Virus record (IMG/VR): IMGVR_UViG_3300005663_000753 | Coordinates: 21,802-62,983 of that record | Length of the DNA: 41,182 bases | Strand: one strand, 5' to 3' | Origin: a virus | Shown: positions 16,647-35,269 of the stretch, piece by piece | Numbering within the stretch: the first letter of the stretch is position 1 | How the letters are laid out: every line of letters begins with the position of its first letter | Translations under genes and position numbers: made by a program | The notes under the pieces: generated by a model | Database searches by the model: none | Seen by the model: only the letters and a program-made list of their open reading frames with translations | Told to the model about the DNA's origin: nothing

Positions 16647-16993
16647 TAATTATTCTCCATCTTTTTTAAATAAACCTCGTAATGATGATTTTGTCCTGCT
16701 GCATCGTCTATATTAATTACCTGATACTTTACATTATTAAATATTACTATAGAGTCTAAACTAATATTAGCTGTAACTTTAAAGAATCCTAGATATGTGG
16801 CTAACTCAGATTTACCTTTAACACTAAACTCTATAGTTTGACCTAAATTTTGGATTAAACAGGGTTCCGATGCTTCAGTCTCTGCGATTGTCTCTGTAGG
16901 AACTCCGAATCTGTCTATATCTCCGCTATTGTATGTTCTAGAAAGTATAGTCGCTGTCTGAGTAAGTAAATCTGTAAAACTTTGGTCTGACAT
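16646..16993 (-). CDS. Head-tail joining (head-closure-like) protein
   Basis: A 115-residue beta-barrel-like protein. The pattern of an early ATILSRTY strand, RFGVPTETIAE, and late IVIFNNVKYQVINIDDA and HYEVYLKK strands is that of the phage head-tail adaptor/stopper family (SPP1 gp16, HK97 gp9-like). It would close the portal channel after packaging. Position between connector and gp10-like genes agrees. Confidence 0.7.
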   Translation of the reverse strand: MSDQSFTDLLTQTATILSRTYNSGDIDRFGVPTETIAETEASEPCLIQNLGQTIEFSVKGKSELATYLGFFKVTANISLDSIVIFNNVKYQVINIDDAAGQNHHYEVYLKKMENN

Positions 16994-18032: not shown

Positions 18033-18069
18033 TTACACTATTAAAAACGAATAAGTACTGTCCTAAAAT
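18033..18069 (-). promoter_or_regulatory. Conserved element copy A (putative promoter or module border)
   Basis: Read on the minus strand: ATTTTAGG, 11 bases, TCGTTTTTAAT, then AGTGTAA. The same 8-mer and 11-mer with the same 11-base spacing recur at 35723-35760. Here the element overlaps the end of the GT4 gene and leads straight into the SD of the next gene. It could be a phage-type late promoter. A recombination border is the alternative. Confidence 0.4.
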
Positions 18070-20735: not shown

Positions 20736-21363
20736 CTGCTTCACACTCCCAAGGTATAATCAAATCAGCATATTTTTTACTTTGGCGAACACATGCTGCC
20801 TCTCGCTCAACTACAAATTTTCTAAATTTATTATCTGGATTTTCCTTACCTCTACCTTTTCTAAATTGGTAAGTATCCGAAGTAGTACCATCTAAGTAAA
20901 CCCTATAATCTGCATCTGCATAACAGGCATATAAACCCTCAATTATTAGAATATCTATATTTCTACCTGAGCTTATGCTATACTCTATAGAGTTTAAAAA
21001 TTTATGAATTCGCTGTATGTATAATTTTCGTTTTCCTGCCCTAAAATCAGAAAATATTTTATTAATTTTATCCCAACTTATTTCCTCTTTGCCTATAATC
21101 TTAGTTTTCCTTCGCACCTCATTGCGATTTCCCCAAAATGTAGAATAAAAGTCATCTATATGTATTATTTTTATATGTAAATTAGCTTGGTAAAAAAGAT
21201 ACTCTTGCACAAGGGCTGCTACCTCACTCTTACCCACTCCACTGATTGCACCAATAGCGAGTATAACTTTAGATTTACCCTTGTAGAATTTTAAAAATTC
21301 AGGTAAAATTAACTTGGCTTTAGTGTAGTGCAAACTTGTAAAAATAAGTCTATCCCCGACCAT
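20713..21363 (-). CDS. Uridine-kinase-like P-loop protein
   Basis: A 216-residue P-loop kinase. Walker A is GAISGVGKSE, followed by IIHIDDFYSTFW (the DDFY substrate motif of uridine kinase/phosphoribulokinase) and DILIIEGLYACYADADYRVY, the Walker B strand with the EG signature. The C-terminal RDRxxR-like lid region is FRKGRG...FRKFVVEREAACVRQSKKYAD. The substrate could be a nucleoside or a sugar/nucleotide precursor for the cassette. Phosphorylation feeding the CTP or UDP pool is one possibility. GGAG lies 8 bases upstream of the ATG, and the start overlaps the end of a small zinc-ribbon gene. Confidence 0.75.
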   Translation of the reverse strand: MVGDRLIFTSLHYTKAKLILPEFLKFYKGKSKVILAIGAISGVGKSEVAALVQEYLFYQANLHIKIIHIDDFYSTFWGNRNEVRRKTKIIGKEEISWDKINKIFSDFRAGKRKLYIQRIHKFLNSIEYSISSGRNIDILIIEGLYACYADADYRVYLDGTTSDTYQFRKGRGKENPDNKFRKFVVEREAACVRQSKKYADLIIPWECEADEKTFQK

Positions 21364-21511
21364 CTGCTATCTCCAATATGGTTTTATCTAGTTTAGGGTC
21401 AAAATAATAATCTATTCTTATTCCACAAGGACAGACTACGGTTGCATCTTCCATCACTGTTTTAATATCAATCCTTCTACCACACCTGCAGGTTCCAAAT
21501 AATTTAGACAT
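21350..21511 (-). CDS. Small zinc-ribbon protein, 53 aa
   Basis: Begins MSKLFGTCRCGRRIDIKTVM and contains CPCG about 20 residues later, so two CxC knuckles could hold one metal ion. AGGAG lies 4 bases before the ATG, and its end overlaps the start of the kinase-like gene by 14 bases, arguing for coupled expression. It resembles other tiny cysteine-rich proteins scattered in this phage. Role unknown: an RNA-binding translational regulator or a partner of the kinase are both possible. Confidence 0.65.
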   Translation of the reverse strand: MSKLFGTCRCGRRIDIKTVMEDATVVCPCGIRIDYYFDPKLDKTILEIADGRG

Positions 21512-21518
21512 TTTTCTC

Positions 21519-22586
21519 CTATTTAGATAGTAATAACTTAGTAACTATAGAGCTAGTAGGTTTTAGATATTCTGTAGGAATCCCTTCTAACTCTAACTTT
21601 AATACAGTATCTACTCCTCGTAGTATATCTTTTGTGCCAGTTCCGCATAAAACCATTTGAGACACTTCCAGTAATTCAGTTCTCTCAGTTTCATCCCGTA
21701 TAACAACACATTTAGTATTTAACATAGCAGCCTCTTCACACTCTCCACCAGAATCACTAATAATTAAGTCTGAGTAATACATTAAACTTAAAAATTTGGA
21801 ATACTTTAAAGGCTCACACAACAATATTCCTTTATCTTCAAATAGACTTTCTATATTCTTATTGTTTAGTTTAGCAGCTAAAGACGGATGTGTACTTAAT
21901 ATAATTGTATACTTTTTAGATAGTACTTTTAATGCATTGGTTACAGACTGTAGCTTAGAATAACTATTTATTGTTTCATGTCTATGCAAAGTCATTAGAA
22001 TATAAGGCTGCTTAATTTCTCTGGGTACAGATATGTCAAAGTAAGTTTTAACAACCTCCCCTAAAGGATTTCCAGTTACTATTATATCCCTGGGATTATA
22101 CCCCTCAAATAGCAAGTTCTCTCGGCTCCTTTGACTGTAGCATAGTAACTTATATGCCATAGAGTCTACACATTTTCTATTAATCTCTTCAAGAATATCT
22201 TTGCCAGCCCTATTACCACTTTCATTATGGTATATCCTGAACCCCATTCTCTTAGCCACAAAAGCCGATGCAAACGCACCATTAACATCACCCAACAAAT
22301 TTATTACTGTGTTACTAGTGTTATATTTAGTAAGGATTATTTCTATATTGTTCATACAACTGCCGATAAAATCATAGTTGTTTAGCTTTTCGACTATGTT
22401 AAATATATAATCTGGGGTTCGCAAACATAAGTCTTTTAAAACTATACTATATAAGTTTTTATCATAGTTCTGACCTGTGTATATAATTGTATGCTCTGTA
22501 CCAATTAATGAATCTAGTTTTTTGAGTATTAAACTTTGTCTTATTAACTCAGGTCTGGAACTTAAAATACTTATTACTTTACCCAT
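21519..22586 (-). CDS. Non-hydrolysing UDP-GlcNAc 2-epimerase-like protein
   Basis: A 355-residue GT-B-fold epimerase of the WecB/WbjD family. Landmarks are SILSSRPELIRQSLILKKL, INLLGDVNGAFASAFVAKR, HNESGNRAGKDILEEINRKC (the usual H-E-A-G-x-R segment has Ser in place of Ala), LMTLHRHETIN and ISDSGGECEEA. It would epimerise C2 of a UDP-HexNAc. Next to the dehydratase and RmlD-like reductase it could make the final step of a UDP-N-acetyl-6-deoxy-L-hexosamine route. On its own it would make UDP-ManNAc. An SD lies inside the end of the upstream gene. Confidence 0.85.
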   Translation of the reverse strand: MGKVISILSSRPELIRQSLILKKLDSLIGTEHTIIYTGQNYDKNLYSIVLKDLCLRTPDYIFNIVEKLNNYDFIGSCMNNIEIILTKYNTSNTVINLLGDVNGAFASAFVAKRMGFRIYHNESGNRAGKDILEEINRKCVDSMAYKLLCYSQRSRENLLFEGYNPRDIIVTGNPLGEVVKTYFDISVPREIKQPYILMTLHRHETINSYSKLQSVTNALKVLSKKYTIILSTHPSLAAKLNNKNIESLFEDKGILLCEPLKYSKFLSLMYYSDLIISDSGGECEEAAMLNTKCVVIRDETERTELLEVSQMVLCGTGTKDILRGVDTVLKLELEGIPTEYLKPTSSIVTKLLLSK

Positions 22587-23623
22587 TCAAATCTCTCCTT
22601 TAATTCCTGTTTTAATGCTGTATCTACTGGGCATTCTATCAACTTCTCAAACATTAAGTCATATATAAAACCATAGTATTTGTTCTCTGGTCTAAAATAA
22701 CTTACTTGTAATAGTTTTCTCGCCATTCCATTATCCCAATCAATAAACTTACACGCTACTGCAGTAGTGGAGTTCTCTGGGTCTATATGGACTCTAGCAT
22801 CCTCAGCAAAGTAAATTCTATTCCTATTCTCTGCTGGTAACTTTTTAGTTAGTATGTAGTTAAACATATCTGAAATATTAATATAAGGAAATTCATTAAA
22901 AGTTTTTCTAGTATTATCTTTGATAAATCCAGTAGTTAAACAGTTGGGGGGTCTGCATAGCTTATCTATTTCCAAGAAGTTATCATGGTCTGAGAAAATA
23001 TAGAATATAGAATCAGGAGCATCGAAATCGATATAATCAAGATTTAATTTTATCCTTTCTATAGCTACTTTTAAACTTTCTCCAGTAGCTAATGCTTGAT
23101 GGTACTGGAGGTTTTTTATAAAATAAAATTCATTTACATCTACATCCTTCTGCGCAGCCTGAATGTATCGTTTATTACGAGAATAGAATGCATTATTTTC
23201 AGTAGTATTAGTTAAAAGTATTTTAGTAAATTCTTTGGTTGCTTTAAACTCATCTGCTTTGTGTAAACCACAATCTAGTGAAGTTGATTTACAGATATAG
23301 TTATCAGCGCAAATTGTTAAATAAAACCAAGAAGCATTGTTTATATACACAATCCAACCCTTATCATATAGTTTTTTGAGTAACAATCTATGCTTCCAAG
23401 GATAGTCTATTATCCCATCTGTCTTATACCTATAGTGAGTATGATAAGCTATACCACCTGGAACTAAATCAGATGGCATCTTACCTGTAAGTAAAGATAC
23501 TACAGAAGTAGTGGTAAAGCAATTACTTATCTGGGTTAGCTTAGTGAACCCTTTACCATCAAAGTAGTTATCTAATAGACTCCCATATGGAACTGAATCA
23601 TTCAAAATAAAAAATATCTTCAT
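22574..23623 (-). CDS. Alkaline-phosphatase-superfamily protein (sulfatase/phosphotransferase-like)
   Basis: A 349-residue soluble protein. It shows FFILNDSVPYGSL with a metal-ligand Asp (residue 9), CFTTTSVVSLLTGKMPSD with candidate nucleophile threonines 37-39 at the site used by sulfatases and phosphoethanolamine/phosphoglycerol transferases, and FYIFSDHDNF with a metal-binding Asp-His pair (212-213). A Thr nucleophile, not Cys, argues for a transferase or phosphoesterase over a sulfatase. No signal peptide or membrane helix is visible, so it is probably cytoplasmic. In this cassette it is a candidate for moving a phosphoryl or phosphonoyl group, such as HEP, onto a sugar. That role is inference. 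TAATG couples it to the upstream SDR. Confidence 0.6.
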   Translation of the reverse strand: MKIFFILNDSVPYGSLLDNYFDGKGFTKLTQISNCFTTTSVVSLLTGKMPSDLVPGGIAYHTHYRYKTDGIIDYPWKHRLLLKKLYDKGWIVYINNASWFYLTICADNYICKSTSLDCGLHKADEFKATKEFTKILLTNTTENNAFYSRNKRYIQAAQKDVDVNEFYFIKNLQYHQALATGESLKVAIERIKLNLDYIDFDAPDSIFYIFSDHDNFLEIDKLCRPPNCLTTGFIKDNTRKTFNEFPYINISDMFNYILTKKLPAENRNRIYFAEDARVHIDPENSTTAVACKFIDWDNGMARKLLQVSYFRPENKYYGFIYDLMFEKLIECPVDTALKQELKERFEWVK

Positions 23624-24462
23624 TATAATCCTTTAATATACTCAGTTACACTTAGAGTAGGTTTCCAGCCCTTAGCTCGTAGCTTAGAATTCTTTAATAA
23701 AATATAACCTACTTCTGGGTTTGATTTACCAAACTTATAGTCCACACCTGACAATTTAATTAAGTCTAGAGTTCTGTGCGCCTTAGAATTACTTACTTGA
23801 AAAATATCTTTATCTTTAACAGTAACTAAAGCTTTAACTACATCTTTAACATAGATATAATCTCTATAGTCCTGACCTTTATTATATACAGTCATGGTCT
23901 TTCCATTCTTCTTACGGTATTCTATAACTCCAATAAGCCCCATTTTTCTACTGCCATTTTGCCTCTCGCCAAATACATTACCAAATCTAAAGATAGTATA
24001 ATTTTTACAGTGTTTTTTGATATGTAATTCATTCAGCCATTTAGAACAGCCATATGTACTTATAGGGCTGAACTTAGATTTTTCTGTAACTAACCTTTGA
24101 TTACCATACACAGCACAGCTAGAAGAAAATACTATTCTACCATTTGGTTTAAGTAATTTCACTACAGCTCTGGTAGAGTCTATATTATCAATAGCTTCTT
24201 CGTCTCCGACTGCCCTGGTATTAGCTTTAGCTGCTAGATGATATATCGTATCAAAGAAGGGGTTAACTAAATCTTCGTGTACATCCTGTACTCTCACAGG
24301 AAGAAAAAACGCCAGACTCCGAAATACCTTTTTAATATTCCTCCAATTACCTGTAGATAAATCATCTATAACATAAACCTCATTTAATGGATTTTTTACC
24401 AGTTCTTCTACTAGGTGTGAACCTATAAATCCAGCTCCGCCTGTAACTAATATTTTATTCAT
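23623..24462 (-). CDS. GalE-like NDP-sugar epimerase/dehydratase (SDR)
   Basis: A 279-residue extended SDR with ILVTGGAGFIGSHLVEELVK, VYVIDDLSTGNWRNIKKV, TIYHLAAKANTRAV, VFSSSCAVYGNQ and catalytic Tyr-x3-Lys in TYGCSKWLNE. Later landmarks are FRFGNVFGERQN and QDYRDYIYVKDVVKAL. These fit UDP-glucose/GlcNAc 4-epimerase relatives, slightly shorter than typical GalE (about 310-340). It would supply one of the NDP-sugars used by the neighbouring glycosyltransferases. The exact substrate cannot be read from the sequence. Confidence 0.82.
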   Translation of the reverse strand: MNKILVTGGAGFIGSHLVEELVKNPLNEVYVIDDLSTGNWRNIKKVFRSLAFFLPVRVQDVHEDLVNPFFDTIYHLAAKANTRAVGDEEAIDNIDSTRAVVKLLKPNGRIVFSSSCAVYGNQRLVTEKSKFSPISTYGCSKWLNELHIKKHCKNYTIFRFGNVFGERQNGSRKMGLIGVIEYRKKNGKTMTVYNKGQDYRDYIYVKDVVKALVTVKDKDIFQVSNSKAHRTLDLIKLSGVDYKFGKSNPEVGYILLKNSKLRAKGWKPTLSVTEYIKGL

Positions 24463-26059
24463 GTTTATCTCCGTTTACAAATAGCAGTGAAATTTCCTCG
24501 TTAACCCCTTTATTCTTATAACCATAAATATTTTTTGTATCTATTATTTCTCCATTTAGCCATCTACTATTTAAGTCTTCCTTAGTATATGAAAACTTTA
24601 TACCAAAAGGATTAGTAGGACAGACAGTTTGAACTTGGTTAACAGGTATATTAAGTATCCTGCCAGTCTTAAAAGAAAGAATATAAGGCGCAAACTTATC
24701 CCTATTAGTATTAAATAAAAATTCCAATTCATTTGGATTATCAAAAGTAAAATCCTTAATCATATCTCTGTACCATTGTGTTCTGTATATATGTATATTA
24801 ACTGCTCCAGGATAACCCCAATCAGTAGCGGGGTCTGCCTCAGACCATTTCCATTTTAGAAAATTTCCCTCGCATGGATAAAACTTAGGTAATGGGGTGG
24901 GTTTATTTGTACCATAACAATAGGTTATGTGCTCTCCCATACGCATAGATACAGCAGCTACATCCTTAGTATAAAAATGCATTATATCCTCTAGATTAGT
25001 GGGTATAACAAATACGTCATCATCACAAATAGCTACCATAAATGTAGTTTTCATACTAGCTAATATACCTTTAGTATCTTTTTCAAAATCAGTTCTTTCA
25101 ATAAACTCTATATTTAATCCATAATCCTTAGCTATTAATTTTGCGTAGCCTTGTTTAAATGCTTCAGTTGAATAGTCGTATCTAAAGTATATTTTGTTGT
25201 AACTTTTAAAATTATCTTTTATGCTTCTAAGTAATAAATCAGCTTGACACGCTCTGTCTTTTGTCCATACAAGTATATCTATATTAATATCATTAGCGAT
25301 TATCTCTTGTTTATTATACTGTTTATACTTAGGTTTATGCCTTATTTCAGAATAAATAGCTAATTGTTTAGCTGGACAAACTCTCATATCATTAAGACTA
25401 CTAGTATTATTATATACATACATTATTTTATCTAAGCATTTTCTATGCTTGTGTCCTGCCATCTCTATCATAGGTACAGCTACGACAACATCTCCAGCAG
25501 TAGTATAGTAGTTTCCTTTTGAGTCTCTTAAATCTTCTTCTTTTATACCTTTAAATAGAAAGTATTTGTATGTTCTTAAGTGAGAAAAATAGTATCTAAG
25601 CATGTGAATTCTATGAAAGTCTTTGTCTACATCTATACACCAGTTTTCTTCCTTAAACTTACATATCTTGTTGGTAGACAGTAACTTAAACTGCCCCCAT
25701 GTAATCCAAGTATCATCTTGATATGCTCCATTTAAATACTCTAAAACATCATTTGATGGCAGCCAATCATCTCCGTCTAGAATAACAATTATATCTTCGT
25801 CTGATTTACAGATAGAATGAATGCCTATCACTGTATTTTCTAAAGCACACTTCTTAACTGTATTATCAATGAAGTTAAATCTTGTATCATTTTTTATTTC
25901 TCTTTCAATTATTTCTGCTGTCCTATCATTAGAATAATCATTAATTACAACTACTTTATAATTTTTATAAGTTTGGTATTTAATAGAATCTAAACACTTT
26001 TTTATCCATTTTTCAGAATTAAAAACTGGAACTACTATTTTAAAATTATTTTTGACCAT
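24455..26059 (-). CDS. Double-domain glycosyltransferase (GT2 + GT-A-like)
   Basis: A 534-residue protein with two GT-A-like units. Domain one (about 1-240) is a family 2 transferase: FKIVVPVFNSEKWIKKCLDS, VVVINDYSNDRTAEI and the metal/nucleotide motif ILDGDDW (Asp95-Asp98). Domain two (about 262-500) begins INIDILVWTKDRACQADLLL and has FMVAICDDDVF, a second candidate DxD. Fused pairs like this often add two sugars in succession. The ATG lies 14 bases inside the preceding gene, so the two are translationally coupled. Donor and acceptor are unknown. Confidence 0.75.
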   Translation of the reverse strand: MVKNNFKIVVPVFNSEKWIKKCLDSIKYQTYKNYKVVVINDYSNDRTAEIIEREIKNDTRFNFIDNTVKKCALENTVIGIHSICKSDEDIIVILDGDDWLPSNDVLEYLNGAYQDDTWITWGQFKLLSTNKICKFKEENWCIDVDKDFHRIHMLRYYFSHLRTYKYFLFKGIKEEDLRDSKGNYYTTAGDVVVAVPMIEMAGHKHRKCLDKIMYVYNNTSSLNDMRVCPAKQLAIYSEIRHKPKYKQYNKQEIIANDINIDILVWTKDRACQADLLLRSIKDNFKSYNKIYFRYDYSTEAFKQGYAKLIAKDYGLNIEFIERTDFEKDTKGILASMKTTFMVAICDDDVFVIPTNLEDIMHFYTKDVAAVSMRMGEHITYCYGTNKPTPLPKFYPCEGNFLKWKWSEADPATDWGYPGAVNIHIYRTQWYRDMIKDFTFDNPNELEFLFNTNRDKFAPYILSFKTGRILNIPVNQVQTVCPTNPFGIKFSYTKEDLNSRWLNGEIIDTKNIYGYKNKGVNEEISLLFVNGDKHE

Positions 26060-28214
26060 ATACTTTACTCACTGTTTTACTTAATACACTATCAAAATCA
26101 TTGTAATTTAAGTGTGTTAAATTATTAATAAACCTTTTAGCTAAATGATGTCCAGCATACCAGTGTAGTCCTAGTGATTCCCTAGTGTACCTGCCCATAT
26201 CCCCATAGTTATAGATAGTAGGTATTACTAATGCATCATAAGCATACACAGTCTTTATATCTATATTAGCCACATTATTCCTCAATGCTGGAAACTTATC
26301 TTCTATTGAAGCTACTGTAGGAAACTCTTTATTAATTAGATTAACTCCTATACTCTGGTAATCCTGTGGATTAAACTCTCTACGAGCTCTATCCAATATA
26401 TATTTGTAATATTTATTATGCTGACCCGATAACATAAATCCTACTGAGTGTTTATACTTTGGATGTAAAGATACGGCTGTATTAATATTACCATTAGCCC
26501 TAATATTTATATCTAGATTATTCATTGAACTAAAATACATTATATCCATATCTGACCATAAACCCCCTACTGTACTCAGAAGATACCATCTAAGAAAATC
26601 CGACCTATAAACTTCCTGCCTAGATAAATATTTAGAATGTAAGCCCTCACAGACGTTCTCTACAAATCCAAACTTCACTTTCTTTATATTAATGCCTAAA
26701 CTTCTTAGATTATTATAGTAATCTCTTCCAGTAAAATCAAAAGCTCTCTGGGTGTCAAGACACCTCCCAGTATACTTATGTTCAGGAACATACACAGTTA
26801 TTTCCCAATCTGGATTATGCATCTTAAAACTAAGAATAGATAGATACCTGAGATAAGGTAACTTAACATTACCCCAGTAAAAATGTACCTTCCTGGGTAT
26901 TTTTTTAAGTTCCCATTCTCTTACTGCAGACACAGGATTACCTTTAGGTCTATTTTTAGGATTTAATTGACCCCAAGTATGCTGAGTATTACTAAATACA
27001 ACCCCCTGTCTATCCTTATGTTCATATAAGTTTTTATTATGCACATACCTAGACCATATTTTAGGGTCTTTAATATTATGCCTGGGATGGTATAAGTGTA
27101 CTATCGTAGAATCTATATTGATAAACTTGCAACCATACTTTCTCAGTCTTAGAATAAAATCAGTATCATCATAAGCCCAACCAATAAAATCTTCATCATA
27201 ACCACCTACACACAAATAGTCTGATTTATTTATACCTAGAAAAAAGGGCATCTCAGTATTTAAATTTTCCACCTGATTTAAGTCAAATGCGGAAGTAACT
27301 TCACCTTTAGTATCCTTTACATGAGTCAAGAAGGTATTTCTTTGGTCATCTTTACCTTTAGGTTTAACTAGAATTTTTATCTCAGACTTTAAAGCTTCTA
27401 TAGTTTTCTTTACAGCAAATTTATCTAGATGAAAAATCTCTGCATTAGTAAGGATTAAGTATTCTGCATAAGCTTCCCGCATTCCTATATTTAAACAAAA
27501 ACCTGGACACCTCCATATCAGACTACCTGGAGAGTTTCTTTGTCCAGTATAAATATACCTAATATTTAGTTTATCCTTATATTCGTTGCATAGTTCTTCT
27601 GTGCCATCAGGTAATCCATCATTGAGTATTATAACCTCAAAAGGATATGGACACTCCTGCTTAGATAAAGAATATAAGCCCCATTTGAGTAAAGGTATTT
27701 TATTAAAGCAAGGTATTAATATAGATGCTACAGGCTTATCTATCTTTACAGACAGTGCTTTTTTAAACCTGGTGTGTATCTCCATTCCCGATAAAGGTAT
27801 CCTACCTGGCTTTTTAGTTGTAGTAGTTATTTTGATAGTCTTAGTATTGGGTGCTAGTAAGTCGAAGTTTATTTTATTTGAAACTGTGGGTTGCCCTCCT
27901 GTAGACTCATGGCAATTATTATCTAAAATGAAATGTTGTAGGTTACTTGGGTATAGGTCGCTATGTGTAACCAGTGAACCCAGAGACATTAAAGCTGAAC
28001 CATCTCCATTTATAACAAACACCTTTCTACTTGTATTAAGTGCTAAACCTAAACCTATAGCCAATGTAGAACCTAAAGCCCCCATATTATAGAAATTTAA
28101 ATCTCTATCCGATAAGTTATATAATTCTCTGCTAATAAGTCCAGTAGAAGATACTATTATATCCTGTTCTTTAACACCTGCTAATATTTTTATTATGGCT
28201 TCTGTTCTATTCAT
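26046..28214 (-). CDS. Phosphonopyruvate decarboxylase beta domain fused to GT2 and GT32-like glycosyltransferases
   Basis: A 722-residue three-part fusion. Residues 1-155 are the TPP-binding half of phosphonopyruvate decarboxylase: VFVINGDGSALMSLGSLVTH (GDG at 70-72, partner Asn 99/100), ESTGGQPT and a C-terminal RIPLSGMEIHTRFKKAL as in Ppd. Residues about 161-410 are a family 2 transferase: ASILIPCFNKIPLLKWGLYS, IILNDGLPDGTEEL, then GGYDEDFIGWAYDDTDFILR. Residues about 438-700 resemble GT32/OCH1: IPRKVHFYWGN, YRSDFLRWYLLSTVGGLWSD and DMD (555-557). The alpha subunit is the preceding gene, separated by one base. Fusing a C-P bond-forming step to two sugar transferases is unusual and links phosphonate supply to glycan building. 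The frame is continuous, with no stop or frameshift seen. Confidence 0.82.
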   Translation of the reverse strand: MNRTEAIIKILAGVKEQDIIVSSTGLISRELYNLSDRDLNFYNMGALGSTLAIGLGLALNTSRKVFVINGDGSALMSLGSLVTHSDLYPSNLQHFILDNNCHESTGGQPTVSNKINFDLLAPNTKTIKITTTTKKPGRIPLSGMEIHTRFKKALSVKIDKPVASILIPCFNKIPLLKWGLYSLSKQECPYPFEVIILNDGLPDGTEELCNEYKDKLNIRYIYTGQRNSPGSLIWRCPGFCLNIGMREAYAEYLILTNAEIFHLDKFAVKKTIEALKSEIKILVKPKGKDDQRNTFLTHVKDTKGEVTSAFDLNQVENLNTEMPFFLGINKSDYLCVGGYDEDFIGWAYDDTDFILRLRKYGCKFINIDSTIVHLYHPRHNIKDPKIWSRYVHNKNLYEHKDRQGVVFSNTQHTWGQLNPKNRPKGNPVSAVREWELKKIPRKVHFYWGNVKLPYLRYLSILSFKMHNPDWEITVYVPEHKYTGRCLDTQRAFDFTGRDYYNNLRSLGINIKKVKFGFVENVCEGLHSKYLSRQEVYRSDFLRWYLLSTVGGLWSDMDIMYFSSMNNLDINIRANGNINTAVSLHPKYKHSVGFMLSGQHNKYYKYILDRARREFNPQDYQSIGVNLINKEFPTVASIEDKFPALRNNVANIDIKTVYAYDALVIPTIYNYGDMGRYTRESLGLHWYAGHHLAKRFINNLTHLNYNDFDSVLSKTVSKVYGQK

Positions 28215-28215
28215 A

Positions 28216-28575
28216 TTATTCTCTTACTAAAAAATAATCCTTTCCTTCTACTAGCCTCAAGAGTTTTAATAAATCCTCTGTTATCATCCCACAAAATTCA
28301 TGATGCTCTGGTTTAGTTCGTAAACTAATTAGTAATGGTATCTTTATTCCATATGGTTTACACAGAGATGTTAGTATATCAAGGGTATTCATAAAACCGC
28401 TACTCTGAACAAACACTAGAGGTTTCTTACCAGACAAGTAAGCCCCCACAGCAAGGGCAACACCTTCATCTTCCCTGGTAACTATAATGCAGTTGCTATA
28501 GTCTAAAATATTCTTAAACTTACTACATGGAACTCCAACTATAATATCATAATCAGTTAAATCTAGTTTATTCAT
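28216..28575 (-). CDS. Phosphonopyruvate decarboxylase alpha (PYR-domain) subunit
   Basis: A 119-residue TPP-enzyme PYR domain, as in Ppd or sulfopyruvate decarboxylase ComD. It has DIIVGVPCSKFKNIL, then IIVTREDEGVALAVGAYLSG, with the Glu that activates TPP, and LVFVQSSGFMNTLDILTSL, plus PEHHEFCGMITEDLLKLL. It would pair with the TPP-binding N-terminus of the next protein to decarboxylate phosphonopyruvate to phosphonoacetaldehyde, the step that drives the unfavourable PEP mutase equilibrium. Most phosphonate pathways carry this as a single chain, so the split is notable. Sulfopyruvate decarboxylase is the main alternative, but the adjacent PEP mutase favours phosphonopyruvate. Confidence 0.85.
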   Translation of the reverse strand: MNKLDLTDYDIIVGVPCSKFKNILDYSNCIIVTREDEGVALAVGAYLSGKKPLVFVQSSGFMNTLDILTSLCKPYGIKIPLLISLRTKPEHHEFCGMITEDLLKLLRLVEGKDYFLVRE

Positions 28576-29824
28576 AATTACTCATTCTCTGTTTAGTTGC
28601 TTCAATCGGAGTTAGACTTCTGAAGTCTTCCAAACTACAAATACAATTCTCTATTGCTTTACCATTCTGTTCTGTTTTTAAAACTTTAAGCATCTGTTTA
28701 ATCCCGAATATCTTGGAGCGAAGGGTCTGATTGGCGTAAATAATTATAGAATATCCTGTGTTAAATAACTCTGAGTTCGTTAAGTGCGGAAATTTTGTAG
28801 GAATTATAATTAATGGAATACCCCTGTTCAGCTTCTTAGGAACACTCAATGCCTCTCTACCTGTAGCATCTCTGGTATGTAGTAATAAAATATCTGCTCC
28901 ACAGTCTGCATAATAATTAGCACGTTTAATTGCCTCATCCATACCATAATCTCTAATTAACGCCTCTGTTCTAGCTATAATACAAAAGCTCGAACTTACT
29001 CTAGCGTTAACAGCAGCAATAATTTTATTTCCATGATTTTCCATAGTTGCTATAGCCTTCTTACCGCCCCATAAAGAATTGGTTTTTGGATACACATTAT
29101 CCTCAATGCATATAGCACTAGCACCAGCATTCTCCAATTCCCTGACAGCTCTAACTACTTGTTCAGTATCCCCGTAACCTGTATCCGCATCAACTATAAC
29201 GGGTAAATTAGTTGAATTGACTATAGGTCTTACTGTGTTAACCATATCAGTTAGATTTATAGTTTCGTTATCCACTAACCCCATATTTGCACTAGACTCA
29301 AAAGAAGATACCCATATACCATCAAAACCAAATTCCTCTACAAGCTTTGCTGTAATGGCATCATTAGCCGATACAACTACTAACTTTTCGTTTTTATTCA
29401 GAGCTGATTTTAGGGTATTCTTTTCTCTTATTTTTTGTATTAGCCTAGTAGTAGAAGTATACGGGTAGTAGGGTACTTCCTTAACTTCACATAAGCCCAG
29501 CTCTCGCACTTTTGAATATAGAGGTGGAAGCCAATTACCTGCATGCACTAATACATCAACCTTATAGGTAAGAATATTATCTAACATTTTAGGTGTTCTG
29601 TAATCCATACAGTCTTCTACAACCTTAGCCACCCCTTCAATAGATTCAATAATTTTTTGTCTATCTTCAAATTTAATTATAGGTTTTCTTTTGTACTTAG
29701 TTATAACATCATCGGGATGTAAACCAATAATAATATAGTCGCCCTCAGCCTGAAGTTTCTTAATAAACTCAAGATGTCCTCTATGAAATAAGTCTCCAGC
29801 CATAGTAGCATACACTACTCTCAT
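28568..29824 (-). CDS. pepM: Bifunctional cytidylyltransferase / PEP mutase (Fom1-like)
   Basis: A 418-residue fusion. Residues 1-135 are a glycerol-3-phosphate-cytidylyltransferase-type domain: VVYATMAGDLFHRGHLEFIK with HxGH at 14-17 and STTRLI at 124-129. Residues about 140-410 are PEP mutase: VIVDADTGYGDTEQVVRAV, ICIEDNVYPKTNSLWGG (PKTNS holds the catalytic Lys and Asn), CIIARTEALIRDYGMDEAIK, LLLHTRDA and LIIIPTKFPHLTN. The mutase makes phosphonopyruvate from PEP. In Fom1 the fused N-domain converts 2-hydroxyethylphosphonate to its CMP ester. The first Lys of the family's EDK motif is Asn here. ATG at 29824 is chosen (AGGAG 8 bases upstream, TAATG overlap with the dehydrogenase). Confidence 0.93.
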   Translation of the reverse strand: MRVVYATMAGDLFHRGHLEFIKKLQAEGDYIIIGLHPDDVITKYKRKPIIKFEDRQKIIESIEGVAKVVEDCMDYRTPKMLDNILTYKVDVLVHAGNWLPPLYSKVRELGLCEVKEVPYYPYTSTTRLIQKIREKNTLKSALNKNEKLVVVSANDAITAKLVEEFGFDGIWVSSFESSANMGLVDNETINLTDMVNTVRPIVNSTNLPVIVDADTGYGDTEQVVRAVRELENAGASAICIEDNVYPKTNSLWGGKKAIATMENHGNKIIAAVNARVSSSFCIIARTEALIRDYGMDEAIKRANYYADCGADILLLHTRDATGREALSVPKKLNRGIPLIIIPTKFPHLTNSELFNTGYSIIIYANQTLRSKIFGIKQMLKVLKTEQNGKAIENCICSLEDFRSLTPIEATKQRMSNYE

Positions 29825-30702
29825 TAAACACACTCCTGTATTAGCTCACTAAGTAACTCATAAACTACATTCTCATCTAGATTCATAACAGTATTACTAG
29901 ATTTAGAATATTTAAATGCTTCATGTACAACATATTTCCAATCTACAGCAAGCTCTTTAATATTGACCGAGTATGCAGGAAAATTTTGCTTTAGATGCCA
30001 GACTAAACTAGATAAGTCTTTATGCTTAAAGTATTTATGCATTCCGCAGTCTCCGAAATAATCTATAAAATATGGGAGTACTAGAGCACAAGCAATTCCA
30101 TGAGACATTCCATACTTAAGCGTAAGCGGGTAGGTTATTGCATGAACTATATTTGTTTCTACTATCTCTATAGCTTGTCCAGCATAGTTGCCACCAATGA
30201 TTAATTTCTTTATATTTCCAGCAGTATAAAATTTACCTATATTTTGTATAGCTAAAATTGACAATATGTTGCTCCTAGCTGTTGAATGCTTAGACCACAA
30301 ACACTCGAAGCTGTGAGATAGAGCATCAAACATTGTAGCTATCTGTATTGTTGTATCTAATTTTATTTCGGAATATTTAGGAGTCTTAACTATAGGTTTT
30401 CTGGTTGTGATACTCCTCTTTGTAGCTCCCCACACTGTAGCATAGGAAGTCATAGCTGCTCCTGCAGCAGTAGTTGGTATGACTAAAGCTCTTTGGTCTC
30501 CTGCAATTATTTTAGCCATATCTATAACGCTACCCCCACCTATACCTATCACTAAATCATATTTATTTGGTATTGTAGTAACATATTCTTTAGGTGTTCC
30601 TGATACGCAAAGAAATATAGGGTCTTCATATTCTATACCTATCCTCCTAGCATACGCTTTAGTGCTATTACTATGTAGTATTAAAACCTTTTTACTTTGC
30701 AT
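29824..30702 (-). CDS. Iron-type alcohol dehydrogenase, probable phosphonoacetaldehyde reductase
   Basis: A 292-residue group III (iron-dependent) alcohol dehydrogenase. The NAD(P) loop is DLVIGIGGGSVIDMAKIIAG, followed by VIPTTAAGAA. All four metal ligands can be placed: Asp126 and His130 in MFDALSHSFECLWSK, His188 in VHAITYPLT and His201 in GMSHGIA. The DALSHxxExxWS segment is typical of the phosphonoacetaldehyde reductase (PhpC/HEP dehydrogenase) branch. Next to PEP mutase and the decarboxylase, it would reduce phosphonoacetaldehyde to 2-hydroxyethylphosphonate. It is shorter than usual (about 350-380), mostly at the N-terminus. ATG at 30702 is chosen over a start at 30819 because the longer form would run through the zinc-ribbon gene in another frame, and AAAGGTAAG precedes 30702. 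Confidence 0.88.
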   Translation of the reverse strand: MQSKKVLILHSNSTKAYARRIGIEYEDPIFLCVSGTPKEYVTTIPNKYDLVIGIGGGSVIDMAKIIAGDQRALVIPTTAAGAAMTSYATVWGATKRSITTRKPIVKTPKYSEIKLDTTIQIATMFDALSHSFECLWSKHSTARSNILSILAIQNIGKFYTAGNIKKLIIGGNYAGQAIEIVETNIVHAITYPLTLKYGMSHGIACALVLPYFIDYFGDCGMHKYFKHKDLSSLVWHLKQNFPAYSVNIKELAVDWKYVVHEAFKYSKSSNTVMNLDENVVYELLSELIQECV

Positions 30703-30829
30703 TTTTCTTACCTTTGTAAAATAAACTTGTATGTTTCTGTTTACACTTTGGACACTTAATTTTTCCCTTAGAACCTGTTTCCATTTTAAGTAATTTACCA
30801 CAGTAACAGTAAAATTCAAAAGTACTCAT
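30692..30829 (-). CDS. Com-like small zinc-ribbon protein, 45 aa
   Basis: Reads MSTFEFYCYCGKLLKMETGS then KIKCPKCKQKH. CxC plus CxxC knuckles, with GKLL after the first and KCPKC in the second, give the layout of the phage Mu Com family of zinc-binding translational regulators. It overlaps the start of the dehydrogenase gene by 11 bases and follows the HAD gene by 2 bases. A small RNA-binding regulator of the phosphonate genes is possible. The resemblance is by eye only. Confidence 0.65.
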   Translation of the reverse strand: MSTFEFYCYCGKLLKMETGSKGKIKCPKCKQKHTSLFYKGKKNAK

Positions 30830-30831
30830 AA

Positions 30832-31215
30832 CTACCTACTCCTGTATTTAGTGCTATTGATACTACTTCTTATGTACCTAATCCAAAGCTCTATAAACCT
30901 AACTGTACACCAGTCTCTATGTGAACTGAATAATCTATCGCCTATAAATATATCATAATGTGGTTTATTGGTTATCAGCGAATCATAAGGTATATTATGT
31001 TCATCTAACCAAAGTTTAGTTAACTTCCTTGCATCCTTACCACAAGAATCCCTACTAGTGAATATAACTATTTTATGCCCTCTATTTTTAAGTTCTCTGA
31101 TTATGAGTAACCATTTCTGTCTAGGTTTTACTCGTAGGATATCTTCTGGGTGTTTAACTCTAATAGAGCTGCACAGTGTATTGTCCAAATCGAAAGCAAT
31201 GGTTTTTACCCGCAT
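30832..31215 (-). CDS. HAD-superfamily phosphatase
   Basis: A 127-residue HAD hydrolase without a large cap. Motif I is AFDLDNTLC (Asp9, Asp11), motif II is IVIFTSRD (Thr53), and late motifs are NKPHYDIFIGDR (Lys84, Asp93). It resembles the small HAD phosphatases found in capsule and polysaccharide clusters (BcbF-like). It could dephosphorylate a sugar phosphate or a pathway intermediate. ATG at 31215 is preferred over 31227, because GGGAG lies 5 bases before it and the protein then starts right at the first HAD strand. It overlaps the end of a tiny membrane protein gene. Confidence 0.8.
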   Translation of the reverse strand: MRVKTIAFDLDNTLCSSIRVKHPEDILRVKPRQKWLLIIRELKNRGHKIVIFTSRDSCGKDARKLTKLWLDEHNIPYDSLITNKPHYDIFIGDRLFSSHRDWCTVRFIELWIRYIRSSINSTKYRSR

Positions 31216-31361
31216 AACTTCTCCCATATAAGCTTATACCATTGTATTAGTTGTTTTATATTAAACCGCCTGTTGCGTGCAAAAATAATACAAAAAACTA
31301 TAGGCATATATAATATAATCGATGCAGTAATAATAAAAGATAGTAATAAAATTTTAAGCAC
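31206..31361 (-). CDS. Tiny membrane protein, 51 aa
   Basis: A GTG-started frame within AGTGCTTAA that overlaps the stop of the GT9 gene and, at its other end, the start of the HAD gene, so all three would be translationally coupled. GAGG lies 10 bases upstream. It reads LKILLLSFIITASIILYMPI then VFCIIFARNRRFNIKQLIQW and ends KLIWEKLCG: one long or two short hydrophobic segments followed by a basic amphipathic tail. It might anchor cassette enzymes at the membrane. It is not recognised as a family and no homologue check is possible here. Confidence 0.5.
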   Translation of the reverse strand: MLKILLLSFIITASIILYMPIVFCIIFARNRRFNIKQLIQWYKLIWEKLCG

Positions 31362-32664
31362 TGTTTTTTAACCTCACTAAGTAATCTAGTATACTGTTCC
31401 AGTCAAAAAAATTATAACAAGATTCTTTATGACACCTCTTTTTAGAGCTGTGTACAAACTGAGAGCCTGCACATGGGTAACAGCTTACTGAAGGGGTATA
31501 TACCTTTAGATTTTTATATGTGGAAGTTCTCCATTCAGGTTCAAAATAATTAATAAGTCCTACTCCTTTTAGACCCAAACCCCCAGCAATATGTAAAAAT
31601 GCACTATCTACTGTCAATACATAATCCATTATAGATATTAAAGAAAATAAATCCCTTATACTTAATTTTTCTGATAGGTTAATACAATTTTTAATATCAC
31701 ATTGCTTTAAGGAAGAAGTAAATACTGTAAAGTCTCTGTCCACAAGATAATCTATTATATATTGAACTCTATCTAAAGTTATTCTGGTATCAGGTCTGGC
31801 GCTATCGAAACCTAAAAATATTTTATTTTTATAACTACCATAACTATCCTTAAAAAATTTAGACTCTTCGTCTGTAACCAGTATATCTGGAATATCTATA
31901 GATAGTTGGTCTTTCCATAAATTACAAACATTAGCAACTGCATAAATTCTATTTTGTTTATTTAAGTCTAGTCTATAGTCATTTAAAAGTTGTCCAAAAT
32001 GTAACCAATATATTCTATCAAATGCAGCTACATTAATCTGTTCCCTGAAAGTATAATATTCAGATATGTAACTAAGATTTTTAAAAACATCTTTTCTGTG
32101 CGCATCGGCTAAAATATTTATCTTATAACCCTTATCAGCTAGTGTTTTAAGTGTAGGTGTGCATAGCAGAAAATCCCCTACTCCTCCAGTAATTTCAAAT
32201 AATAAGTTATTCGTATTTTCCTCATGTACCGTAGTTACGTCTTTAACATCTTTAATCGTGGTAATAACGGGTATATTATATTTAGTAAAACTACTAAAAG
32301 CCCTGGCTAGTTTAGAAAAATTTGTACATGAAAAACACCCTTTAAACTTAAGGGGGTTTATGAATAAGGTGTGAATCATCCATTTCCAAGAGACTACCAC
32401 GTAAACTATATTTTTATGTACTAAAGGATTGTTAGGAAGCTTATCACATAAATAAAAAACACCGATATCATTAGCTATAGCCTCTTTAACAATAGGATGA
32501 TTTTCTTTAGGTACATCTCCGACATGTTGAATAAATCCAACAATACTGAATCTCCCATAAGGTTCTGGAATAATATAAGTAGCTTTTTGTTTTATAAGAT
32601 AGGTATTAGTAATATCTGGATAATGCAATACAGCTTCCGATGTGATTAAACGGATTGCGCTCAT
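31354..32664 (-). CDS. GT9 heptosyltransferase-like glycosyltransferase
   Basis: A 436-residue protein. From about residue 150 it reads as an ADP-heptose-LPS heptosyltransferase-family GT-B enzyme: LLFEITGGVGDFLLCTPTLK then LADKGYKINILADA, with MDYVLTVDSAFLHIAGGLG in the donor domain and a Cys-rich end (SCYPCAGS, KKRCHKESCYN). The first about 150 residues are of unknown origin. GT9 enzymes usually build the inner core of Gram-negative surface glycans, which hints at a Gram-negative-type donor, but the sugar is not defined. It is the first gene of the cassette. The SD is weak (GGTGA). Confidence 0.82.
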   Translation of the reverse strand: MSAIRLITSEAVLHYPDITNTYLIKQKATYIIPEPYGRFSIVGFIQHVGDVPKENHPIVKEAIANDIGVFYLCDKLPNNPLVHKNIVYVVVSWKWMIHTLFINPLKFKGCFSCTNFSKLARAFSSFTKYNIPVITTIKDVKDVTTVHEENTNNLLFEITGGVGDFLLCTPTLKTLADKGYKINILADAHRKDVFKNLSYISEYYTFREQINVAAFDRIYWLHFGQLLNDYRLDLNKQNRIYAVANVCNLWKDQLSIDIPDILVTDEESKFFKDSYGSYKNKIFLGFDSARPDTRITLDRVQYIIDYLVDRDFTVFTSSLKQCDIKNCINLSEKLSIRDLFSLISIMDYVLTVDSAFLHIAGGLGLKGVGLINYFEPEWRTSTYKNLKVYTPSVSCYPCAGSQFVHSSKKRCHKESCYNFFDWNSILDYLVRLKNSA

Positions 32665-32807
32665 TAGAGTTCACCAAATATTTGTAAGTTTAAATGGGTA
32701 TAGTATGAAAGGTAAGAATTTATTATATAATTTAACACTTTTAACTCCTTTATTATTTAAAGGAAATAGGGGCTGGTTAATACCAGCCCCTAGATTAAAG
32801 TCAATGT
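32665..32807 (-). other. Intergenic gap between capsid gene and cassette
   Basis: 143 bases between the end of the capsid gene and the GT9 start. It contains the terminator at 32761-32792 and, further downstream on the minus strand, an AT-rich stretch with TATATAATA (about 32719-32727) that could be a -10 box. No convincing -35 hexamer was found. Cassette transcription may therefore come from read-through or from a weak promoter here. Confidence 0.4.
32761..32792 (-). terminator. Terminator-like hairpin after the capsid gene
   Basis: A perfect stem of 10-11 bp (AGGGGCTGGT pairing with ACCAGCCCCT) with a TAAT loop, 16 bases past the capsid stop codon. On the minus strand it is followed by ATTTCCTTT, a broken T-run, so termination is probably partial. 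That would separate high capsid expression from lower cassette expression. Confidence 0.7.
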
Positions 32808-33749
32808 TTAGCTTGCAGATTTAGAAATCTTAACAAGTCCTTCTGCTTTAGAAGAAGAGTTTAACAAAGCCCATTTGAAATCATACCAGAAGGTAATAAC
32901 TAACAAATCTGCTCTGCGACCAGCCTTATGTTCTACATCAATCTCTAATTTACCGTAGTAACCAGAGAAAGCACCTTTCAGGTTAGCTAGAACTGCCTGT
33001 TCGCCTGTTAACTGTCGTCTTTTAATTACAGGAATACCATCAATATGAACAACTTTCTTCAAGTTGAGCGGTGCATAATCTTCAAGGGCAAATCCTATAT
33101 AATCTTTGTTTGCTGATTTCTTAGCTGAGGAATAGAAAGTACCTGATGCAAAAATAACTAGGTCTTCTATATGCTCCGTATCTCCGTAAAGCCCAATGTT
33201 TTCTTGTGCTTCAATTACAGCATTAATTATGCTTTGTGAGTCTGAAGTTGTATAAGTAACTGCTGTAGATGCATTTAGAGTACCAGAAGCTGCTATAGTA
33301 GCAATACCATTAGTAACATTAAGCGTATTGGTTGCCCCAACAGCATCAGTATTTCCGATAAGGGTTATCTTATCTGCTGTACGAGCTATAGCGTTAGAAA
33401 TTTTTTCTCTAAACAATTTATCAAGTTTTAACTCAGGATACTGAGCTACCTGTTTTCTCTTAAGGTACATATAAGTACCTAACTCAACGGGGAATAAATC
33501 AGGACTTTGAATATCAAAATCATTCTCAGTAAGGGTAGTAATGTCTGTAGTAGTGTCAATTCTATAAACCTTATCTAAGTCTGTTGCTCCTAAAACAGGA
33601 ACAGTACCTTCATTAACTATCTCGATGTAGTGGTCTCTTGATTGCATAAGTTTAATAAATATACTTTTCTCCACCGCCAATTCAACAATTTTGTCAACCA
33701 TTTCTTTTGGTAAATTTGCAGCCGAACCTGCAGGAATTACGAAATCCAT
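32808..33749 (-). CDS. Major capsid protein (HK97 fold)
   Basis: A 313-residue capsid protein. It begins MDFVIPAGSAANLPKEMVDK, a short N-arm, followed by E-loop-like DLDKVYRIDTTTDITTLTE, spine-helix-like RKQVAQYPELKLDKLFREKI and A-domain sequence IDGIPVIKRRQLTGEQAVLA. The end (ADLLVITFWYDFKWALLNS) is typical of HK97-fold capsids. It follows the protease/scaffold gene, the standard order. AAAGGAGGAG precedes the ATG. A glycan acceptor on this protein is one testable role for the next genes. Confidence 0.88.
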   Translation of the reverse strand: MDFVIPAGSAANLPKEMVDKIVELAVEKSIFIKLMQSRDHYIEIVNEGTVPVLGATDLDKVYRIDTTTDITTLTENDFDIQSPDLFPVELGTYMYLKRKQVAQYPELKLDKLFREKISNAIARTADKITLIGNTDAVGATNTLNVTNGIATIAASGTLNASTAVTYTTSDSQSIINAVIEAQENIGLYGDTEHIEDLVIFASGTFYSSAKKSANKDYIGFALEDYAPLNLKKVVHIDGIPVIKRRQLTGEQAVLANLKGAFSGYYGKLEIDVEHKAGRRADLLVITFWYDFKWALLNSSSKAEGLVKISKSAS

Positions 33750-33775: not shown

Positions 33776-35269
33776 TTATTTACTATATTTCAAAAACTTA
33801 CCCCAAGGAAACACTTCCCCAGAATTAGTTTTATTACTTTTTAAATCTATTTCTCTAATAGTATCTAAGTCAGTAGTAGATAACTCCTTAATAATGCCTT
33901 CAAAAGCTTGTTTAAGTTTAGATACATCCTCGTTTACACCTTGTAAGCTGGCTAGTTCCTTAATTAGTTTAGCAATTAAGTTTTCTGCTACTTCTAATCT
34001 AACTTCTAAGTCTTTAGTAGACTCTTTATCTGAAGTTTTATCAATAACTGGTAAATTGGCTTTAGGTGCTTTTTTAATATCTGCTTTAAAAGAACCTTGT
34101 TCAAAGATATAAGTAGGAGAATCATCTTCTTTATCTTTCTTGTCTTCAGATTTTTCATCCTTTTTATCTTCTTTATCCTTTTCATCTGCAGGTAAAATAT
34201 CATCAACATCTTTGTCATCTTCAACTACGTCTGACCCTGAAATCTTTTTGTCCTCAGCCTTGTCCTCAGCCTTGTCTTCTTTCTTATCCTCAGCCTTGTC
34301 CTCAGCTTTGTCTTCTTTCTTATCCTCAGCCTTGTCCTCAGCTTTGTCTTCTTTTTTGTCCTCAGCCTTGTCCTCAGCTTTGTCTTCTTTTTTGTCCTCA
34401 GCCTTGTCTTCTTTCTTATCCTCAGCCTTGTCCTCAGCTTTGTCTTCTTTTTTGTCCTCAGCTTTGTCTTCTTTTTTGTCCTCAGCTTTGTCTTCTTTCT
34501 TATCCTCAGCCTTGTCCTCAGCTTTGTCTTCTTTTTTATCTTCAGCCTTGTCCTCAGCTTTGTCTTCTTTTTTGTCCTCAGCCTTGTCTTCTTTTTTGTC
34601 CTCAGCCTTGTCTTCTTTCTTATCCTCAGCCTTGTCCTCAGCTTTGTCTTCAGTTAAATCTCTAACAGAACCAGCCTCAACCTGGGTTAAAAGCCCTCTT
34701 TTAACTAGCTGTACTTTATGCTCATCTTTCTGAGCCATTGTTAAAGCCTCTGGATTACCAGGAACGGGTACTGCTGAATATTCGTGCAATTCCCATTTTG
34801 TTACAACAAAAACACCCCAACGATGTTTTTTTAAATCTGCTGAAGATAAACTAAGGTTATATAGAGTATTTATAGAATCTAAATTCTCTTCAGTAACCTC
34901 TACCCATTTTTGCGGTGCAAAGCCTATTGACCAGGCACTCAAAAATCCATCTCTGTAAGCTTGAAAAAGTTTAACAGATAATGGGTCATTTCTATTAAAC
35001 TCAGTTTTTGTTTTAATAGCATCTTCATCTATATCAAGTTCTAAACACCTAGCTATAGGTATTTTAACTGAAGTATCATCCATATTATGCAACCAAAGAA
35101 CTACAGGATTTTTTAAGAAATTCTCTACACTTGCAGCTTTTGGTAAAACTACTGTTCCATAACGGTCAAGAGTTTTAGTATTAACTATATGTTCTATAGT
35201 CATATCCTCTGCACTCACAGTCCTAACATGAGTAGTTTGAAAGCTTCTTCGCTTAGTTTTTAAGTCCAT
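33776..35269 (-). CDS. Prohead protease fused to charged repeat linker and scaffold
   Basis: A 497-residue maturation protein. Residues 1-180 are an HK97-type (U35) prohead protease: FLKNPVVLWLHNM with catalytic His61, GFLSAWSIGFAPQKW with Ser114, and KWELHEYSAVPVPGNPEAL. Residues 206-341 are 34 tandem tetrapeptides of the type AEDK or KEDK. Residues about 410-497 include a predicted coiled coil (DLEVRLEVAENLIAKLIKEL) fitting a scaffold domain. It would cleave itself and the capsid scaffold during prohead maturation. Fusion of protease and scaffold is known in HK97-like phages. The long repeated linker is not typical. Confidence 0.88.
   Translation of the reverse strand: MDLKTKRRSFQTTHVRTVSAEDMTIEHIVNTKTLDRYGTVVLPKAASVENFLKNPVVLWLHNMDDTSVKIPIARCLELDIDEDAIKTKTEFNRNDPLSVKLFQAYRDGFLSAWSIGFAPQKWVEVTEENLDSINTLYNLSLSSADLKKHRWGVFVVTKWELHEYSAVPVPGNPEALTMAQKDEHKVQLVKRGLLTQVEAGSVRDLTEDKAEDKAEDKKEDKAEDKKEDKAEDKKEDKAEDKAEDKKEDKAEDKAEDKKEDKAEDKKEDKAEDKKEDKAEDKAEDKKEDKAEDKKEDKAEDKAEDKKEDKAEDKAEDKKEDKAEDKAEDKKEDKAEDKAEDKKISGSDVVEDDKDVDDILPADEKDKEDKKDEKSEDKKDKEDDSPTYIFEQGSFKADIKKAPKANLPVIDKTSDKESTKDLEVRLEVAENLIAKLIKELASLQGVNEDVSKLKQAFEGIIKELSTTDLDTIREIDLKSNKTNSGEVFPWGKFLKYSK
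34247..34654 (-). repeat. Tandem 12-bp repeats encoding (A/K)EDK, 34 units
   Basis: About 34 imperfect 12-base units, each encoding AEDK or KEDK (the first is TEDK), in the middle of the protease/scaffold gene. Units are nearly identical in DNA, with only a few synonymous changes, which implies recent expansion by slippage or unequal recombination. The product is a polyampholyte linker (net charge near zero for KEDK, -1 for AEDK). Repeat number is likely to vary between isolates and may be misassembled. Confidence 0.95.

Follow-up and report, generated by a model that had tools for sequence, protein, structure and literature searches.

The stretch analysed here, called the window throughout, comprises bases 21802-62983 (41,182 nt) of IMG/VR record IMGVR_UViG_3300005663_000753, a linear and possibly incomplete viral record of 62,983 bases. 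Between positions 26046 and 30702, on the minus strand, four adjoining and overlapping genes encode a compact iron-type alcohol dehydrogenase (FeADH), a cytidylyltransferase fused to a phosphoenolpyruvate (PEP) mutase (CyT-PEPM), and the alpha (PpdA) and beta (PpdB) parts of a split phosphonopyruvate decarboxylase (Ppd). A preliminary description of this DNA had read the block as a phage-borne route from PEP via phosphonopyruvate and phosphonoacetaldehyde to 2-hydroxyethylphosphonate (HEP) and its cytidine monophosphate ester (CMP-HEP). All four genes are recognised by profile and PDB matches, and the route, as predicted from families and residues, is supported as the best fit. The hidden Markov model searches proposed there for PEP mutase, Ppd and the reductase were run, and all three families were found in the block. 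Of the outcomes named there as refuting, none that was checked came about. The predicted pathway to CMP-HEP is retained, but the description had missed three things: the block forms the head of a glycan cluster of 14 genes (18063-32664), PpdB is fused to glycosyltransferases (GTs), and the cassette is spread widely among phages. From FeADH through the WecB-like gene, eight genes follow each other with overlaps of 1-14 bp or gaps of 1 bp. Chance is excluded by the E-values together with the repeated co-occurrence of these genes in 39 other contigs.

The fusion carries both of its domains in one chain (PF01467, E=4e-12; PF13714, E=3e-50, 171 bits with a cut-off of 31.5). The N-terminal cytidylyltransferase domain shows the motifs FHRGH (HxGH) and STTRLIQKI and has as its best PDB match 5x3d (4e-16), a chain named PEP phosphomutase that we take to be the cytidylyltransferase domain of Fom1. 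The mutase domain is closest in the PDB to the Mytilus PEP mutase 1m1b (7e-54), and among all NCBIfam models it scores best with TIGR02320, at 243 bits against a cut-off of 319.6. Of the residues of the Mytilus enzyme, the window enzyme retains W44, S46, D58, D85, D87, E114, K120, T121, N122, S123, R159 and H190, with Asn in place of K116 and Gln in place of H240. The stretch that reads EDK(X)5NS in the motif used by pepM surveys is consequently EDNVYPKTNS, and EDN also occurs at the viral loci L007, L010 and L011 and in the cellular PEPM of locus L064. A phosphonopyruvate hydrolase was considered and rejected since N122, which is Thr in the hydrolase, is kept. An isocitrate-lyase relative, against which the preliminary description had proposed a phylogenetic check, was rejected as well: in a tree of 94 rows the window enzyme groups with the PEP mutases. 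There it is paired with the PEPM of L007 (100/97) inside a purely viral clade of seven members (100/100) on a long stem. The nearest cellular rows are PEPMs of Nitrospira, KSB1 and Omnitrophota (96/87), and the deep placement of the clade is unsure owing to long branches. Among its members, the residues that the window enzyme retains vary only at T121 and at E114, where L009 and L014 have Gln. Other viral PEPMs branch elsewhere (L015 with L019, L021-L023, L012, L013), which suggests several separate acquisitions by viruses.

Both halves of the decarboxylase, described beforehand as split subunits, are recognised by profile. Instead of a single chain of about 370 amino acids, the form seen in the sampled cellular clusters, the window encodes a 119-residue alpha subunit, whose PDB match is 9iz3 ('putative phosphonopyruvate decarboxylase alpha subunit'), and a beta domain within a chain of 722 residues. 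The first ~127 residues of the latter match TIGR03297 (E=5e-37, 128 bits against a cut-off of 312.5); the beta part as a whole (residues 1-~157) contains the motifs GDGS...NN and HESTGG. The small viral subunits retain the thiamine diphosphate site (GDG...NN) and the catalytic Glu of the alpha subunit, and physical linkage of decarboxylase and PEP mutase recurs in dozens of viruses. Behind the beta subunit, the frame runs on through a GT2 and then a sugar-binding GT domain. At L007 and L008, the closest relatives, PpdB and the GT are encoded separately, some 2 kb from each other, and the interval holds two LicD genes and one gene without Pfam match, so that the fusion probably arose by deletion. 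Two frames of these relatives are disturbed, possibly by homing insertions or sequence errors: the PpdB frame of L007 (11593-12813) starts with an HNH-endonuclease-like segment, and the CyT-PEPM frame of L008 is broken near DADTGYG (10639-10747).

Split subunits are typical of ComDE, and the alpha subunit reaches 73 bits with the sulfopyruvate decarboxylase model TIGR03845 versus 66 with Ppd. Hence we considered a sulfonate pathway, in which a ComDE-like sulfopyruvate decarboxylase would be followed by a sulfoacetaldehyde reductase. This reading was rejected as highly improbable: the mutase stands among PEP mutases, whose product is phosphonopyruvate and not sulfopyruvate, the beta subunit scores higher with Ppd (128 versus 114 bits), and the dehydrogenase obtains 85 bits with PsrA versus 28 with the sulfoacetaldehyde reductase SarD.

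In the case of the dehydrogenase, the open reading frame spans 29824-30819, and the ATG at 30702, the boundary given in the preliminary description, agrees with the starts of homologues. The four metal ligands noted there are indeed kept as Asp/His/His/His (FDALSH, NIVHA, MSHG), together with a GGGS nucleotide motif. TIGR03405 (Phn_Fe-ADH/PsrA) is the best NCBIfam model at 85 bits, followed by lactaldehyde reductase at 45 bits; the cut-off of TIGR03405 lies at 423.7 bits and the window protein is shortened. The head group could alternatively be 2-aminoethylphosphonate (AEP), made by a transaminase of the host or of an unsequenced part of the phage genome, with FeADH serving another purpose. 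The closest relatives encode LicD transferases and a transaminase of the AEP type, and the record, being linear, may be incomplete. The presence of the transaminase in relatives makes its absence from the record informative, and the preliminary description was right that no such enzyme is encoded in the window: no class V aminotransferase (PF00266, E<=1) was found in the whole 63-kb record, which makes HEP and CMP-HEP the probable products. Moreover, FeADH overlaps the start of CyT-PEPM and lies beside PEPM/Ppd at 33 of 39 viral loci, compared to four with a transaminase. We therefore regard AEP as an improbable head group. The AEP-type version of L007 has LicD and no recognised FeADH. Between the window and L007/L008, head group (FeADH versus AEP transaminase) and transferase (AP-like, as described below, versus LicD) thus switch together, but this pairing is not strict across all contigs.

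The block is embedded in the cluster listed in Table 1, in the order GT9-like, HAD, FeADH, CyT-PEPM, PpdA, PpdB-GT, GT2, SDR, AP-like, UDP-HexNAc 2-epimerase, P-loop kinase-like, CapE-like, RmlD-like and GT1. No LicD-type transferase was recognised among the cluster proteins by Pfam and profile searches. The CapE-RmlD-WecB set presumably yields a UDP-2-acetamido-2,6-dideoxy-L-hexose, by the Wbj/Wbv and Cap5EFG pathways.

Table 1. Features of the glycan cluster and its borders (positions in the window).
Feature	Position	Strand	Basis or remarks
Head-tail adaptor, downstream of cluster	16646-16993	-	phrog_1059 6e-5
GT1-type glycosyltransferase	18063-18911	-	PF00534 5e-7
RmlD-like NDP-4-keto-sugar reductase	18904-19758	-	PF04321 3e-15; 47-50% identity in L007/L008
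CapE/WbjB-like UDP-GlcNAc 4,6-dehydratase/5-epimerase	19752-20744	-	PF02719 1.6e-94; 53-56% identity in L007/L008
PRK/uridine-kinase-like P-loop protein	20713-21363	-	PF00485 3e-7
UDP-HexNAc 2-epimerase (WecB/WbjD-like)	21519-22586	-	PF02350 1.7e-63; conserved in L007/L008
Alkaline-phosphatase-superfamily (AP-like) protein, candidate HEP transferase	22574-23623	-	D9, T37, D212-H213, E274-D275
SDR-type NDP-sugar epimerase/dehydratase	23623-24462	-	PF01370 1e-34
GT2 glycosyltransferase with second, weak glycosyltransferase-like domain	24455-26059	-	profile searches
Ppd beta subunit fused to GTs	26046-28214	-	beta 1-~157, GT2 164-~380, sugar-binding-DXD GT ~440-700
Ppd alpha subunit, 119 aa	28216-28575	-	TREDE and QSSG motifs; Ppd/ComD alpha profile match
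Cytidylyltransferase (HxGH)-PEP mutase fusion	28568-29833	-	PF01467 and PF13714; likely start ATG 29824, 418 aa
Compact iron-type alcohol dehydrogenase, PsrA-like; probable phosphonoacetaldehyde reductase (HEP-forming)	29824-30702	-	292 aa from ATG 30702
HAD phosphatase (EcbF/BcbF-like)	30832-31227	-	profile searches
GT9-like (heptosyltransferase fold) glycosyltransferase	31354-32664	-	PF01075 4e-6
Intrinsic-terminator-like hairpin between major head protein and cluster	32767-32792	-	11 pairs, 7 GC, then TTTCCTTT
Major head protein, flanks cluster upstream	32808-33749	-	phrog_617 7e-6

The AP-like protein gave no match in the Pfam search and none with phmmer against the PDB. An AlphaFold (AF2) model had a predicted local distance difference test score (pLDDT) of 43 with an alignment of two sequences; the model used, built from eight, reaches 70. 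With Foldseek it resembles YejM (5e-9), LtaS (3e-7) and also sulfatases, and D9, T37, D212-H213 and E274-D275 are invariant among its relatives. Fold together with metal and nucleophile residues thus point to membership of the superfamily, at the moderate confidence of the model. In eight of the nine virus contigs found with a relative, the gene adjoins CyT-PEPM/Ppd. The ninth, L122, matches L118 at 96% identity to the left and right of a missing 2.79 kb; this deletion (7164-7245 compared to 7175-9967 in L118) removes CyT-PEPM, PpdA, PpdB and most of FeADH, and leaves the AP-like gene and an end of ~70 bp of FeADH. None of 80 sampled cellular loci has the gene. That the protein transfers HEP from CMP-HEP to a glycan is, in our estimate, close to an even chance; it may instead act as a hydrolase or sulfatase.

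Where the glycan would reside is a question of the last step only. A host-surface target, serving superinfection exclusion or receptor change, is a serious though less favoured alternative to the virion, since bacterial phosphonyl tailoring is thought to act on cell surfaces (PMC6697681, PMC8931226) and the sugar genes resemble capsule and O-antigen genes. Nevertheless, no cluster protein has more than one hydrophobic segment, hence there is no multi-segment membrane protein such as a flippase or polymerase in the cluster, and the cluster is located between the genes for the head protein and the head-tail adaptor. Beyond the cluster, the window encodes a prohead-protease/scaffold protein (33776-35269) that contains a long (KKEDKAED)n repeat of low complexity, and an insulinase-family (M16) peptidase (4491-5648; PF00675, 3e-33). 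Its DnaB-type helicase (30-1817) and a 940-residue probable large terminase at L003 (3452-6274) both contain Hint/LAGLIDADG intein-like inserts.

Single-protein scans of IMG/VR for near relatives of the mutase or the head protein gave no match, but alignment-based scans succeeded: they first returned 17 PEPM loci in virus contigs, and later scans added more, to at least 39 further contigs. The viral comparison set holds 39 PEPM loci, a few of them near-identical (e.g., L014 and L016). The cellular set consists of the 80 best loci, picked by similarity to the query and hence no census; MT837901 and MT836947 ('Bacteriophage sp.') were counted as cellular because their gene content looks like that of gut bacterial fragments. 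Ppd is split at 34 of 36 viral loci and a single chain at 60 of 61 cellular ones, the Nitrospira locus L041 being split too. FeADH accompanies 33 viral and 52 cellular loci, with a median length of 260 versus 373 amino acids; the other viral enzymes are small as well (PEPM ~260, PpdA ~120 residues). An AEP-type transaminase is present at four viral loci, LicD at eight and an AP-like gene at 13. The carriers were searched for terminase, Gp23 and sheath genes, and hallmark phage genes (head, terminase or tail) were recognised in part of them, namely in the records of L009, L010, L011, L014, L015, L021, L023, L123/L141, L150 and L159. For the others, viral status follows from the IMG/VR classification and, for L007 and L008, also from genes in common with the window record.

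Cellular-type metabolic genes on a metagenomic contig may raise the suspicion of an assembly chimera or bacterial contamination. We considered this and rejected it as scarcely credible, given that GC content and strand are uniform around the cluster, head genes lie on one side and tail genes on the other, and the cassette adjoins TerL, portal and protease genes in other phages. In addition, the 101-kb record of L007 shares at least eight left-arm genes as well as the cassette with the window record and is for that reason a true relative. Other carriers differ in what surrounds the cassette. In sister phages (L009 3733-4494, L011 2436-8866, L014 1918-9304) it occurs together with radical SAM proteins of the B12 type and with a CDP-alcohol phosphotransferase; the phosphonate there may be methylated (Fom3-like), or a phosphonolipid/glycolipid route may exist. 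Beside the AEP-type cassette of L007 (6037-7934) and L008 (5489-6235), sulfotransferase-like genes and an APS-kinase-like gene suggest glycans that are sulfated as well as phosphonylated.

From the genes and their families, the conserved catalytic residues, co-inheritance and purifying selection in relatives, we infer catalytic steps, a transferase, an acceptor and a biological role as follows. The mutase would convert host PEP to phosphonopyruvate, from which the split thiamine-dependent decarboxylase (PpdA with the PpdB domain) would remove CO2 to give phosphonoacetaldehyde. The PsrA-like dehydrogenase would reduce the latter to HEP, and the cytidylyltransferase domain would activate it to CMP-HEP. 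In parallel, the CapE/RmlD/WecB-type enzymes are predicted to supply the UDP-2-acetamido-2,6-dideoxy-L-hexose (QuiNAc/FucNAc type), several glycosyltransferase domains to assemble an oligosaccharide, and a transferase, most likely the AP-like protein, to pass HEP onto this glycan, with a virion location slightly favoured over the host surface. That the phage makes HEP/CMP-HEP that feeds a glycan is, in our judgement, probable.

Several observations weigh against this reading. The EDK(X)5NS motif by which pepM surveys define PEP mutases is EDN in the window enzyme, E114 is replaced by Gln in two relatives, the enzymes of the block stay below NCBIfam equivalog cut-offs (mutase, decarboxylase beta and dehydrogenase), and PpdA, PpdB and FeADH are shorter than their cellular counterparts. 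The alpha subunit leans slightly to sulfopyruvate decarboxylase. The AP model is of only moderate pLDDT, with the transferase role drawn from gene context, and a strong terminator-like hairpin parts the head protein gene from the cluster, so that co-expression with the capsid is a possibility only. The main doubts are the K-to-N change and the shortened enzymes. Together with the E114Q change in some relatives and the loss of the cassette in L122, these could indicate degenerate enzymes, either decaying captured bacterial genes or proteins whose chemistry was altered by the EDK-to-EDN change and shortening. We consider this unlikely, as the viral clade shows no variation in the other main catalytic residues, the frames are open and overlapping, and EDN recurs in a cellular PEPM. 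Moreover, dN/dS (the ratio of nonsynonymous to synonymous substitution rates) is 0.03-0.28 for the AP-like gene, PEPM, PpdA, PpdB and FeADH between contigs of the L118/L119/L123 group, a comparison that covers this group and not the window's own clade; in those viruses the cassette is thus maintained by selection. The missed cut-offs mark the proteins as divergent family members.

Phosphonate synthesis is known from cells. Our literature search, which covered subscription journals and preprints only little, found no report of phage phosphonate synthesis, nor is a viral version mentioned in the phage and marine phosphonate-metabolism gene surveys that were checked. Marine pepM cassettes move horizontally and adjoin surface-glycan genes (PMC8931226). 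As both this survey and that of PMC6697681 demand EDK(X)5NS, their censuses miss the whole PEPM clade of the window. As a recurrent phage cassette, these genes would offer a new way for the trait to pass between hosts, might account for some of the phosphonates present in seawater and would add a new chemistry by which virions or host surfaces are modified. Furthermore, small split enzymes and an AP-superfamily candidate open the last step of phosphonyl tailoring, in which the phosphonate passes from its CMP ester to the glycan, to direct testing. More tentatively, we consider it possible, though less likely than not, that phosphonate production occurs in several lineages of tailed phages and serves to decorate the virion, on capsid or tail, with phosphonoglycans; the means would be miniaturised enzymes and a previously undescribed soluble AP-superfamily CMP-phosphonate:glycan transferase, with a mutase clade that EDK screens miss.

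Among known systems, the isolated Vibrio phage Va2 (MW073017; L006) also has an annotated PEP mutase and a Ppd-like thiamine-dependent enzyme, the latter a single chain, but its PEPM is distant and without CyT domain, no FeADH adjoins and the gene order differs. Its Ppd-like and mutase genes (5089-6189, 9890-11194) flank ribonucleotide reductase genes, and this cultured phage is a possible laboratory model. The AP-like protein shares the predicted fold and the Asp/Thr/Asp-His signature with the LtaS/YejM/EptC branch, yet it has no membrane domain, is only ~12% identical and is linked to CMP-phosphonate genes. Similar to Fom1 of fosfomycin producers, the window enzyme joins an N-terminal cytidylyltransferase, with predicted HEP specificity, and a PEP mutase in one chain, albeit in a glycan cluster rather than an antibiotic cluster and with no Fom2-4 homologues recognised in the window. 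In the bacterial HEP phosphonoglycan clusters of Glycomyces and Stackebrandtia, HEP is esterified to a polysaccharide, the same end product as predicted here. Activation with CMP by PEPM-fused cytidylyltransferases is established in bacteria (Rice et al. 2019, PMC6697681). Compared to the bacterial Pnt clusters of that study, the window system is phage-borne, with a split and shortened Ppd, a PpdB-GT fusion, EDN in place of EDK and an AP-superfamily neighbour foreign to the cellular sample, but it has in common with them a PEPM fused to a PF01467 cytidylyltransferase, a decarboxylase, a reductase or transaminase, and glycan genes nearby.

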